The position numbers were made by a program, and so were the translations under genes. Positions 18,730-55,106 of a DNA stretch of 64,000 bases are shown one piece after another. The stretch is from Salibacterium aidingense DSM 18341 (GTDB lineage: Bacteria > Bacillota > Bacilli > Bacillales > Marinococcaceae), in contig NZ_AUCI01000003.1 in assembly GCF_000429685.1 (NCBI RefSeq), positions 248,001 through 312,000 on the forward strand, read 5' to 3'. The stretch's first letter is position 1; each line of letters starts with the position of its first letter. Below the pieces are notes generated by a model. The model was not told the origin of the DNA. It made no database searches and was given only the letters and a program-made list of their open reading frames with translations.

Positions 18730-19485
18730 TCAGCTGTCTTCAAACGGACGCTGAGCAGCATTGCTGATGTCTTCAATCATACCATTGATGGTATCGCCTG
18801 CTTCATCAAGACCAGCACCGTTTTCAATATCGTCGCCAATCTGCTGAATGTTGCCGAATTGTTCTTCATCAAACGTGACGTGGACGTTTTTATCTTCTAA
18901 CTTCGATTCAACTTTTGATTTGATTTTATCTGATAATTCCTGGGCCTTTTCTTCGTTCTCAGGTGTGTCAATCCCAATGAGAACGTCTTGCCCGCGGACA
19001 ATGGCACGACTGTCGTCTACACCTTCCATGTCTTCTACCTGGTCTTCAATTTCCTGCGCCTGCTGAGCGTTTCCATTGTTGGTGCCATTGTTAGTGCCAT
19101 TGTTAGCGCCATTGTTAGCGCCATTTCCATTGTTCATGCCGGCATCATTTGCTGTGTTCCCATCATTTACGTTACGGGCATTCAGCATGCCGCGTTCCCC
19201 GACCATGCCGGGACGATCTCCAATCTGACCCCGGTATCCATCGTTGTCAGGACGCTGTCCTCTCATTGTACCTCCGCCCTGTCTGCGGTCATCATCCGTC
19301 ATCATATCCGTCATTGGACCTTCACCGCGGCGGTTGGCATCCTCATTGTAACCAGTCTGATCATAATTATTGTTAGTGTTATATCTGGTTGGAGCAGCTC
19401 CTTCGTTATCCCCGGCATTACCGCAGCCAGTAAAGCCGCCGGCAATAATAGCACAAGCAGTCAGCGTTAATGCTGTTTTTTTCAT
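18730..19485 (-). CDS. coxA: YhcN/YlaJ-type sporulation lipoprotein, probable cortex protein CoxA
   Basis: A lipoprotein with signal peptide and lipobox FTGC (Cys21 from the ATG at 19485). A low-complexity middle follows with Arg/Gly/Asp-rich sequence and tandem Asn-Asn-Gly repeats (NGANNGTNNG, about residues 120-140). The C-terminal YhcN/YlaJ-like domain contains ALV-type DVLIGIDTPENEEKAQELSDKIKSKVE. Its position between safA and yebC matches coxA (yrbB), whose product sits in the B. subtilis spore cortex. The earlier start at 19503 lies at the AAGGAGG Shine-Dalgarno sequence. Confidence 0.75.
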   Translation of the reverse strand: MKKTALTLTACAIIAGGFTGCGNAGDNEGAAPTRYNTNNNYDQTGYNEDANRRGEGPMTDMMTDDDRRQGGGTMRGQRPDNDGYRGQIGDRPGMVGERGMLNARNVNDGNTANDAGMNNGNGANNGANNGTNNGTNNGNAQQAQEIEDQVEDMEGVDDSRAIVRGQDVLIGIDTPENEEKAQELSDKIKSKVESKLEDKNVHVTFDEEQFGNIQQIGDDIENGAGLDEAGDTINGMIEDISNAAQRPFEDS

Positions 19486-19571
19486 TGAAAAACCTCCTTT
19501 CACCTTTTAGTTTGGTTCAAGGAGGTTATTTTACACTGTTATTTAGAGGTAACAGAGCCAAATGCTATGCT

Positions 19572-20519
19572 TCATTCCTCATTCCGAGGGAACGTATTCA
19601 TCCAGGGTGAATAGGGACCGCTGCTCTTCACAGCCGGGGAAAAATAATTGTTGTTTGTAGGTTCCGCCTCATTATTTGTATTTCCTCCAGCTTTCTCATT
19701 ATTTTCCATGCCATAATAAGAAGGAGAAAATCCCGGCGGCATTTGATTATTTTGCGGCGGCTCCCATCCCATATTCATGGATGGACCCGGCATTTCCGGC
19801 ATCATTGGTCCACAGGGAGATGGAGGCGGTGCAGGCATCATCGGCTGGGGTGAATAAGGCTGGGCTCCATAGGGTGGACAATGCGGCATAACCGGTACTA
19901 CAGGTATATATTGACAAGGTCCGTTCATCATATAAGGCATAGATGGCGCTTCCTGCATATACCCGGAAACTCCTGTTTCCTGTTTTTTTTCTTTTGGAGG
20001 CGGAGTTTGAGACGGCATCACATCTTCTGGTTTTTTTGGTCCTTCCGAGGCCGGTTTCGACGCGGGCTGCATCTGCGGTTTCTTTTGCGGTTCTTTCTGT
20101 ACCGTTGGTTTATAAAAGTTAACGTTCATATTATAATTATTCTCTTCGGTGTGACTGGGAGCCGGTGGATTTGGCGGCAGCGGTGTTGGATGATACATCG
20201 GCGGCACATTCGGCTGCTTTGGTTTTTCCGCACTTTGTTCTTTTGGTTTCTCCTTCTGCTGGGGCATTGTTTTTTCTTTTTGCTGCGGCATTTCTTTCGG
20301 CTTTTCTTTTTGCTGCGGCATTTCTTTCGGCTGGTTGGCCTTTGGCTGTTCTTTTTTCACTTGAACACTTTTCGCTGGAATTTTAATTTTCATGCCAGGC
20401 ATAATTTTATCAGGATCAGCCAGATGGGTATTCGCTTTTTTTACTTCTTCAAATGGAACATTATATTGCTGCGCGAGCTTCCATAAAGTATCCCCTTTTT
20501 GCACGATATGAATATGCAT
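19572..20519 (-). CDS. safA: Spore coat/cortex-interface morphogenetic protein SafA
   Basis: SafA sits at the cortex-coat boundary and recruits inner-coat proteins. The 315 residues begin with one LysM domain (about 3-48: VQKGDTLWKLAQQYN, MPGMKIKIP), then a Lys/Pro/Gln-rich stretch of near-identical 10-11-residue repeats with core KEMPQQKEKP (about 60-100), then Pro/Met/Tyr-rich low-complexity sequence to the end. This layout and the neighbouring coxA-like gene match B. subtilis safA. The ATG follows GGAGGAGG. Confidence 0.85.
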   Translation of the reverse strand: MHIHIVQKGDTLWKLAQQYNVPFEEVKKANTHLADPDKIMPGMKIKIPAKSVQVKKEQPKANQPKEMPQQKEKPKEMPQQKEKTMPQQKEKPKEQSAEKPKQPNVPPMYHPTPLPPNPPAPSHTEENNYNMNVNFYKPTVQKEPQKKPQMQPASKPASEGPKKPEDVMPSQTPPPKEKKQETGVSGYMQEAPSMPYMMNGPCQYIPVVPVMPHCPPYGAQPYSPQPMMPAPPPSPCGPMMPEMPGPSMNMGWEPPQNNQMPPGFSPSYYGMENNEKAGGNTNNEAEPTNNNYFSPAVKSSGPYSPWMNTFPRNEE

Positions 20520-24607: not shown

Positions 24608-24786
24608 TGTCTTTACACTCCTCCTCATTTGATGGTTGAGGATAAAACATATTGTATCATAACGTGATACGAAGGGAATACCCGTCAAATACCACGCTTT
24701 CGTTTCTGAAGCCGATATACATAATTTATACCAAATCGGAAAAGATAATTACCGTTACACTATACCATGTTAATGGAGGTTTTCTC

Positions 24787-25050
24787 ATGACTCAACAAAA
24801 CCAAAATCAACAGCTCCAGCAGGCCCAGCAGGCTATCCAGCAGGCCCAGCAGAATATGCAGAATGCGGGAAATGACCCTCAAAAGCTTCAACAGTCTCAA
24901 CAACAGCTGCAGCAGGCCCAGCAGCAGCTGCAGCAGGCTCAACAGCAGGGAACCATGCAGAATCAGCAGCAATTTCAACAAGCTCAACAAGACCTTCAGC
25001 AAGCCCAACAGGACCTTCAGCAGGTTCAACAAAGCCAGCAAAACCAGTAA
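24787..25050 (+). CDS. Glutamine-rich low-complexity small protein
   Basis: An 87-residue protein of about half glutamine, with no Cys, Trp, Tyr or hydrophobic core. It is built of seven-residue units of the type LQQAQQ(N/Q/D), for example LQQAQQQLQQAQQQ, with Gln, Leu and Ala at regular spacing. This suggests an extended coiled coil or an aggregating fibre. It has a clear ribosome site (TGGAGG, eight bases before ATG) and its own terminator. I do not recognise a named family; resemblance to Gln-rich spore-coat or biofilm proteins is only compositional. Confidence 0.65.
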   Translation: MTQQNQNQQLQQAQQAIQQAQQNMQNAGNDPQKLQQSQQQLQQAQQQLQQAQQQGTMQNQQQFQQAQQDLQQAQQDLQQVQQSQQNQ

Positions 25051-54449: not shown

Positions 54450-54483
54450 TAAAAAAAGAGCCTGCGTACACACACAGGCTCGA
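54450..54483 (-). terminator. Rho-independent terminator after the Sm-like repeat gene
   Basis: Minus strand stem GAGCCTGTG / CGCAGGCTC with a TGTGTA loop and seven T. It isolates the upstream gene from yhaO. Confidence 0.85.
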
Positions 54484-54487
54484 TATT

Positions 54488-55039
54488 TTAAAATAAGGTG
54501 GAAAGGGCGACTAGAGCAGTTAACGGTAGAATTAGACGGCGGAACCTTGGACGCGGCCCATAGCCGTAACCGCCGTAGCCTCCATAGCCGCCGTATCCCC
54601 CGTAGCCTCCGAAAAACTGACGGTTCATCGGACCCGAGTGACAGCCGCACTGCTTCCCTTTAGGCATCGTTTGATCCATTGTCGGGCTTTGCATGCCCTG
54701 CACATTGTTAGGTGGATACTGCATGCCCTGCACATTGTTGGGTGGATACTGCATGCCCTGCACATTGTTGGGTGGATACTGCATGCCCTGCACGTTGTTG
54801 GGTGGATGCTGCATGCCCTGCACGTTGTTGGGTGGATGCATGCCCTGCACATTGTTCATCGGGCCGCCCTGCATACCCTGCATCATGTTATTATCATGGT
54901 TTTCCGGGATCATCATATACACGTTATTGTCGTCTACATTTTCAATATAACCTTCCACTTGTTCATTATTATTCGTCTGCACCCTTACGTAACGCCCTAT
55001 ATTTTGTTTACACATTTGGTGCATCTGCATAGGATTCAT
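54488..55039 (-). CDS. Repeat-rich small protein with an Sm-like N-terminus
   Basis: One hundred and eighty-three residues in four parts. (1) Residues 8-45, CKQNIGRYVRVQTNNNEQVEGYIENVDDNNVYMM, in part resembling the small beta-barrel of Sm/Lsm-like proteins. (2) About 60-115: five to six tandem ten-residue units PPNNVQGMQ(Y/H). (3) A GGYGGYGGYGG tract near 142-160 after a CGCHSG cluster. (4) A basic turn and a hydrophobic end (LILPLTALVALSTLF). The composition is like spore-coat proteins; I know no exact family. Strong AAGGAGG ribosome site. Confidence 0.75.
   Translation of the reverse strand: MNPMQMHQMCKQNIGRYVRVQTNNNEQVEGYIENVDDNNVYMMIPENHDNNMMQGMQGGPMNNVQGMHPPNNVQGMQHPPNNVQGMQYPPNNVQGMQYPPNNVQGMQYPPNNVQGMQSPTMDQTMPKGKQCGCHSGPMNRQFFGGYGGYGGYGGYGGYGYGPRPRFRRLILPLTALVALSTLF
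54694..54860. repeat. 30-base tandem repeats inside the Sm-like gene
   Basis: Five to six direct repeats of a 30-base unit with core GCATGCCCTGCACATTGTTG, at least three almost identical, coding for the ten-residue units above. There are no unique spacers, so it is a coding minisatellite and not a CRISPR array. Confidence 0.9.
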
Positions 55040-55106
55040 TTAACCATCCGCCTCCTTTTACATGGATATCATATTCAGGCAGGCGGGCTCATGTGCAGTA
55101 AATAAT

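Follow-up and report, generated by a model that had tools for sequence, protein, structure and literature searches.

The spore-coat protein GerQ combines a flexible, less conserved N-terminal region with a core of two helices and five strands (PMC11405398). GerQ cores assemble into nine-membered rings via a continuous β-sheet between neighbors, and the rings stack into filaments; the name Sm is not applied to GerQ in the sections of that article considered here (PMC11405398). Expression of GerQ is reported to be under the control of sigma-E (PMC6490927).

Here we analyze a gene from Salibacterium aidingense DSM 18341 located in the window, by which we mean the whole stretch of 64,000 nucleotides that was studied. 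Its product resembles GerQ (YwdL, PF09671, structure 8zra) in joining a low-complexity, flexible part to a helix-and-strand core. It resembles the Sm, LSm, and Hfq proteins (PF01423, PF17209) in an Sm1-type helix, three strands, and an invariant Gly and Asp. However, the five-strand core of GerQ is C-terminal, whereas the three strands modelled for the window protein are N-terminal and accompanied by a conserved Cys and a hydrophobic tail. Furthermore, GerQ is controlled by sigma-E, while the window gene is preceded by a sigma-K-like motif.

Gene organization and overall architecture

The open reading frame at 54488-55039 on the minus strand begins with ATG and encodes a protein of 183 aa. The following features were assigned, with their basis in brackets.

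54488-55039, minus strand: complete gene, 183 aa plus stop (ORF call; homologues)
55051-55057, minus strand: ribosome-binding site AAGGAGG (similar sites in relatives)
55067-55094, minus strand: sigma-K-like promoter motif, with AC at 55094-55093, 17 nt, and AATATGATA at 55075-55067 (similar motifs in relatives)
54890-55039, minus strand: half Sm-like domain, residues 1-50 (alignment, profile search, model)
54690-54856, minus strand: tandem array of a 30-base unit, 5.7 copies, (Y/H)PPNNVQGMQ (Tandem Repeats Finder)
54641-54649, minus strand: Cys-Gly-Cys, residues 131-133 (sequence; CGC also in L003, L007, L008, L009, and L011)
54563-54611, minus strand: GGY tract, 9-base unit x5.4 (Tandem Repeats Finder, 77% matches)
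54491-54547, minus strand: conserved tail RFRRLILPLTALVALSTLF, residues 165-183 (alignment; short helix 173-180 in the model)
54458-54481, minus strand: terminator-like hairpin, then a T run (hairpin search)

From the N- to the C-terminus, the protein consists of the N-terminal domain, the 30-base array, Cys-Gly-Cys, the GGY array, and the tail. This agrees with a preliminary description made from the DNA letters and translated frames, whose layout of an N-terminal domain, PPNNVQGMQ repeats, a GGY tract, and a hydrophobic tail was recovered in full in the frame. The assignment as a real gene is supported by homology, with matches to the N-terminal domain in 43 of 61 genomes, its own included (single-sequence search, E ≤ 0.1).

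The gene appears to stand alone, as judged from its own promoter-like element and the terminator-like hairpin. The hairpin contains 10 pairs; taken alone it proves little, because shuffles of the region yield 0.9 such sites on average. A YidC-type gene lies upstream on the same strand and a calcineurin-like phosphoesterase gene lies downstream (Pfam). Among the 46 family loci defined below, the upstream YidC-type gene is found on the same strand in 19, including that of the window, and the downstream phosphoesterase in 21.

The last 15 residues of the protein, LILPLTALVALSTLF, have a mean Kyte-Doolittle hydropathy of 2.27. A conserved hydrophobic tail that follows Arg residues, together with the YidC-type neighbor, could indicate a tail-anchored protein of the outer forespore membrane, in which the Arg-plus-hydrophobic tail inserts, possibly via the neighboring insertase, and tethers the coat to the membrane. 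However, the hydrophobic run spans only 15 residues and contains a Pro, and the best 19-residue window reaches a hydropathy of only 1.23, which falls short of a clear membrane span. Deeper relatives have an aromatic tail of the FPFFxxxxFFFPFFY type. The promoter-like motif and terminator-like hairpin of the gene itself also argue against such an anchor, as do the 27 of 46 loci where a YidC-type ORF is absent from flanks of ~1.5 kb, although the ORF filter may hide some. We consider membrane anchoring unlikely. An operon with the YidC-type gene was likewise rejected as the main reading, as the motif and the hairpin count against it.

An N-terminal domain resembling the first half of the Sm fold

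The single-sequence AlphaFold2 model of residues 1-57 (mean pLDDT 82) shows a helix at 3-12 and strands at 17-21, 27-35, and 40-43. Cys10, Gly30, and Asp36 are invariant among 29 aligned members, and Val40 is conserved in at least 90% of them; the alignment holds 29 of 30 rows, with L019 left out as its domain is identical to that of L018. We take Gly30 and Asp36 to fall at the Gly and Asp positions of the Sm1 motif. In the aligned register, Val40 presumably occupies the position of the Asn that contacts RNA in Sm1.

Sequence profiles and structural comparison point in the same direction. The family profile matches LSm4 among PDB sequences at E 0.008, and 17 of the 18 matches at E ≤ 10 are Sm/LSm proteins or an archaeal Sm homologue, the 18th being a ribosomal protein (E 2.1). 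In Pfam, LSM matches 16 of the 29 members and DUF150_C 14 of the 29 at E up to 0.1; against residues 1-57 the LSM model scores 17.5 bits, below its curated cut-off of 23.4. Structural alignment of the same residues gave Z-scores of 4.0-4.6, and values below 8 may reflect merely a common arrangement. Among the matches listed, 49 of 50 chains are Hfq, LSm/SmAP, or spliceosomal by entry title, and the remaining chain comes from a pneumococcal protein whose function is unknown. Foldseek alone returned nothing at E ≤ 0.001 (best E 0.38), with mixed neighbors that include a biotin ligase alongside Hfq and LSm. The agreement of sequence profile and model carries the weight for the predicted Sm-like fold.

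The full-length single-sequence model has a mean pLDDT of 51, with values below 50 for residues 48-161 and a short helix at residues 173-180. No Sm2 half (β4-β5) is seen in the domain or full-length models, single-sequence models being a weak test. Only the first half of the Sm fold is thus supported, namely the helix and three strands of Sm1. The Sm-like N-terminus of the preliminary description holds for this half, by profile, model, and structural neighbors, while its second half does not appear in the models. The structure prediction proposed there as a check likewise led to Hfq and LSm neighbors, at Z-scores up to 4.6, for half a barrel only. We also considered a full Sm barrel closed by the C-terminal tail and rejected it; the full-length model gives the tail a short helix instead of strands, which in a single-sequence model is weak evidence.

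The Sm1-type domain, and the Hfq entries that make up much of the structural neighbor list, would suit an RNA-binding regulator of the Sm/Hfq type that acts on gene expression late in the mother cell and whose repeats form a flexible arm that binds RNA. In contrast to Sm, LSm, and Hfq proteins, the window protein shows no visible Sm2 half, has a long low-complexity C-terminal part, and carries Val at the position where Asn contacts RNA in the Sm1 motif. With the Sm2 half not seen and Val at the contact position, RNA binding is unlikely. The near-neutral charge of the protein (10 K+R vs 8 D+E), the late-type promoter motif, and the coat-like composition also speak against a regulator, which we regard as very improbable. 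RNA binding, put forward in the preliminary description, is not supported by these data.

The best Pfam E-value for the N-terminal domain, 1.1e-4, belongs to the C-terminal domain of RimP (PF17384). RimP membership was nevertheless rejected: DUF150_C scores 22.8 bits against a cut-off of 26.3, RimP_N gives no match at E up to 10, and this genome carries a separate rimP gene. The same match bears on the possibility that the N-terminal domain is a plain dimerization or docking module of the SH3/RimP-C-like type, which would bind a partner such as SafA or SpoVID and form no ring. The RimP C-terminal SH3 domain fits the sequence at least as well as LSM does, and the strands seen are too few to close an Sm barrel; however, the PDB profile search yields Sm/LSm proteins and not RimP, and no partner is known. 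A module of this kind seems rather doubtful to us.

The similarity to GerQ is confined to a short stretch. With hhalign, the two profiles align over 24 columns, from β2 to β3, without gaps; the helix and β1 match by eye only. The hhalign probability is 6.3% and the score 16.7, compared with 16.4 for the best of 150 column shuffles, for the one family that was tried, on suspicion, and by a test in which any Sm-like order might succeed. The 24 Pfam families with matches to the 29 members at E up to 0.1 do not include PF09671, and GerQ is encoded by a separate gene in this genome. We do not claim membership in Sm/LSm, GerQ, or RimP, because each fails a tested feature. The family may work like GerQ, which would by analogy be its closest working model.

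DUF2642 (PF10842), which by eye looks Sm- or SH3-like, matches 10 of the 29 members at E up to 0.1. It is not among the families listed for the window protein itself and is represented by a separate gene in this genome, whose product has a Ser/Asn-rich N-terminal half. Among 14 control genomes, DUF2642 was matched only in Bacillus subtilis, and a literature search for DUF2642 together with spores found no paper. Two small ORFs lie side by side at L065:1357-1895 (+); the first is rich in Ser and Asn in its N-terminal half and matches the DUF2642 profile, which makes this locus a candidate for another small-domain spore gene.

Distribution and members of the family

Within the order, the family profile (E ≤ 0.001) finds members in 202 of 299 genomes, representing 92 of 116 genera, and a single genome can have as many as six matches. 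Of 299 genomes drawn from across the phylum, 5 contained the family at E ≤ 0.0001, and these five belong to the organism's own class. The window protein stays below the cut-off of every Pfam and NCBIfam model, the other members being judged by E-values only, and the paralogue in the same genome matches no Pfam family at E ≤ 0.1. Among the titles listed by open-literature searches on Sm-like spore-coat proteins, LSm and sporulation, and GGY repeats, none is about the family. The earlier statement that this is not a described family stands as far as Pfam and NCBIfam cut-offs for the window protein are concerned. It needs qualifying in two respects: the family is widespread, and the combination itself has a precedent in GerQ, which already joins a ring-forming helix-and-strand core to low-complexity sequence.

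Counts of promoters, Cys, and synteny refer to 46 genes: 30 loci from the single-sequence search (window gene included), 15 from the profile search, and the genome's own paralogue. Loci that hold a gene already counted were left out (L033, L035-L038, L041-L048, L051, and L058). Start codons were assigned from the best match to a ribosome site; those of L027, L056, L057, L061, and L063 are probably wrong. The Cys is present in 46 of 46 genes, a count that is partly circular because the homologues were gathered with the same domain.

A second family copy of 124 aa is found on the same contig outside the window (L034:1306-1680, minus strand), directly downstream of a sigma-70-family gene (Pfam) that we take to be sigK. 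Its promoter-like element fits only the looser of the two patterns described below. A Paenibacillus plasmid protein annotated as 'hypothetical protein' matches the window domain at E 0.04 and is taken as a family member by its Cys, domain, and tail; a tblastn search of plasmids with a distant member found nothing. A Blautia stretch (L031), the sole locus from a contig scan, was rejected as a member, its match being 19 residues within an unrelated frame.

A sigma-K-like promoter motif and a probable link to sporulation

The sigma-K consensus reads AC / CATAnnnTA. We searched with the pattern AC-N15-18-VATANNNTA, written from this consensus after the upstream DNA of L001-L030 had been seen, with the first -10 letter and the spacing widened. 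Sigma-K promoters have been described as two blocks separated by a gap of 14-16 nt (Eichenberger et al. 2004, PMC517825).

Within 80 nt upstream, the pattern is present in 26 of the 46 family genes, which are related and not independent trials, vs 0.73 expected from mononucleotide shuffling. It occurs in 4 of 74 control upstream regions from the same loci (Fisher p 4e-10), the controls being ORFs of at least 100 aa, some of which are probably not genes. Five of the 16 genes unseen when the pattern was written match it. A looser -10, adopted after the fact, finds an element starting 29-41 nt before the start codon in 40 of 46 genes; 39 of these 40 have AC at N16 or N17, and 1 of the 40 also has a sigma-E-like -35. 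As far as the upstream sequences indicate, the promoter-like element is kept while the surrounding bases vary. A sigma-70-type match (9 of 12) overlaps the sigma-K-like site of the window gene and, for this gene taken singly, may be the actual promoter.

By eye, many members also contain a GCCC-type element between -35 and -10, for example at 55080-55090 in the window. This might be a regulator site such as that of GerE.

The sporulation gene spoIVA is present in 287 of the 299 genomes of the order. At E ≤ 0.001, the family is found in 0 of the 12 spoIVA-less genomes vs 202 of the 287 with spoIVA (p 8e-7, by genus 5e-5), p-values that are optimistic because the genomes are related. In the looser single-sequence search, one spoIVA-less genome (G004) gave a weak, doubtful match at E 0.044. 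The family is not a core coat part, because 85 of the 287 spoIVA-bearing genomes lack it at E 0.001. The spore-surface location suggested in the preliminary description is supported indirectly by the sigma-K-like motif, the absence from the 12 spoIVA-less genomes, and the copy beside the gene read as sigK.

Three further genes of the window also carry repeats. At 19572-20519 (-) lies a SafA-like coat morphogenetic protein by eye, with a LysM-like N-terminus and KPKEMPQQKEK repeats (30-base unit x2.0 at 100%); with its own fresh repeat, this gene is probably another spore-coat gene of the window. A small Gln-rich protein with 21-base repeats at 24652-25050 (+) resembles, by eye, either a small spore protein of the gamma type or a Q-rich coat protein. 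At 18730-19503 (-), a lipoprotein that is YhcN-like by eye contains a 12-base Asn-Asn-Gly array x4.4.

Turnover of the repeats

The 30-base array has 94% matches and a score of 285, the top of 10 Tandem Repeats Finder entries for the window. Its six NNVQGM cores occur in only two DNA variants, 4 + 2. Other members have different, clade-specific repeats. Met-rich 39-base arrays are found in L008 (3.5 copies) and L009 (4.5-5.1 copies), a His-Gly 42-base array in L016 (8.0 copies), a 39-base array cut by the contig end in L019 (5.1 copies), and short arrays in L018. Three congeners (L002-L004), judged from their proteins, have no such array.

The middle region is free among the aligned members, and the N-terminal domain and C-terminal tail are common to all. 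The different arrays across members suggest that new repeats keep forming in one and the same region of the protein, with numbers that change between sister species. The recent growth of the 30-base repeat that had been proposed from the window sequence is supported: sister genera differ in their array and sister species in copy number.

VrrB, rich in His, Gly, and Gln, is a repeat locus used for strain typing in the B. cereus group. L016, L018, and L019 are His-Gly repeat versions of the family and recall VrrB.

A possible role in the spore coat

We favor, with moderate confidence, the reading that the product of the window gene is a spore-coat protein made late in the mother cell, with self-assembly driven by its half Sm domain. 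The family as a whole is most likely part of the protective shell of the spore. In the proposed mechanism, sigma-K RNA polymerase would transcribe the gene alone, from its own promoter. The half Sm domain would self-associate by strand-edge pairing between subunits, by analogy with Sm and GerQ rings, and the conserved Cys of the helix may link subunits by disulfide bonds after mother-cell lysis. The disordered repeat and GGY parts could provide flexible spacers and sticky sequence, free to drift in length, and the fixed Arg-plus-hydrophobic tail might dock the assembly onto itself or onto a different component of the coat.

A bolder and rather improbable extension is that these are 'open' Sm proteins, half barrels that close only with strands borrowed from neighbors and would build a coat lattice instead of closing into an RNA ring; the spacing of this lattice would be set by repeat arms that evolve freely.

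The coat contains dozens of proteins, many of them of low complexity and hard to place by sequence. The half Sm domain, the fixed Cys, and the fixed tail offer handles on the assembly of such low-complexity coat proteins, and the family profile allows the naming of members such as the plasmid protein now annotated as 'hypothetical protein'. The favored reading would tie coat assembly to the ring principle of Sm proteins, which GerQ filaments resemble. If the 'open' Sm reading is true, the family, with GerQ, would show that the endospore shell has taken over the RNA-ring fold as a building block.
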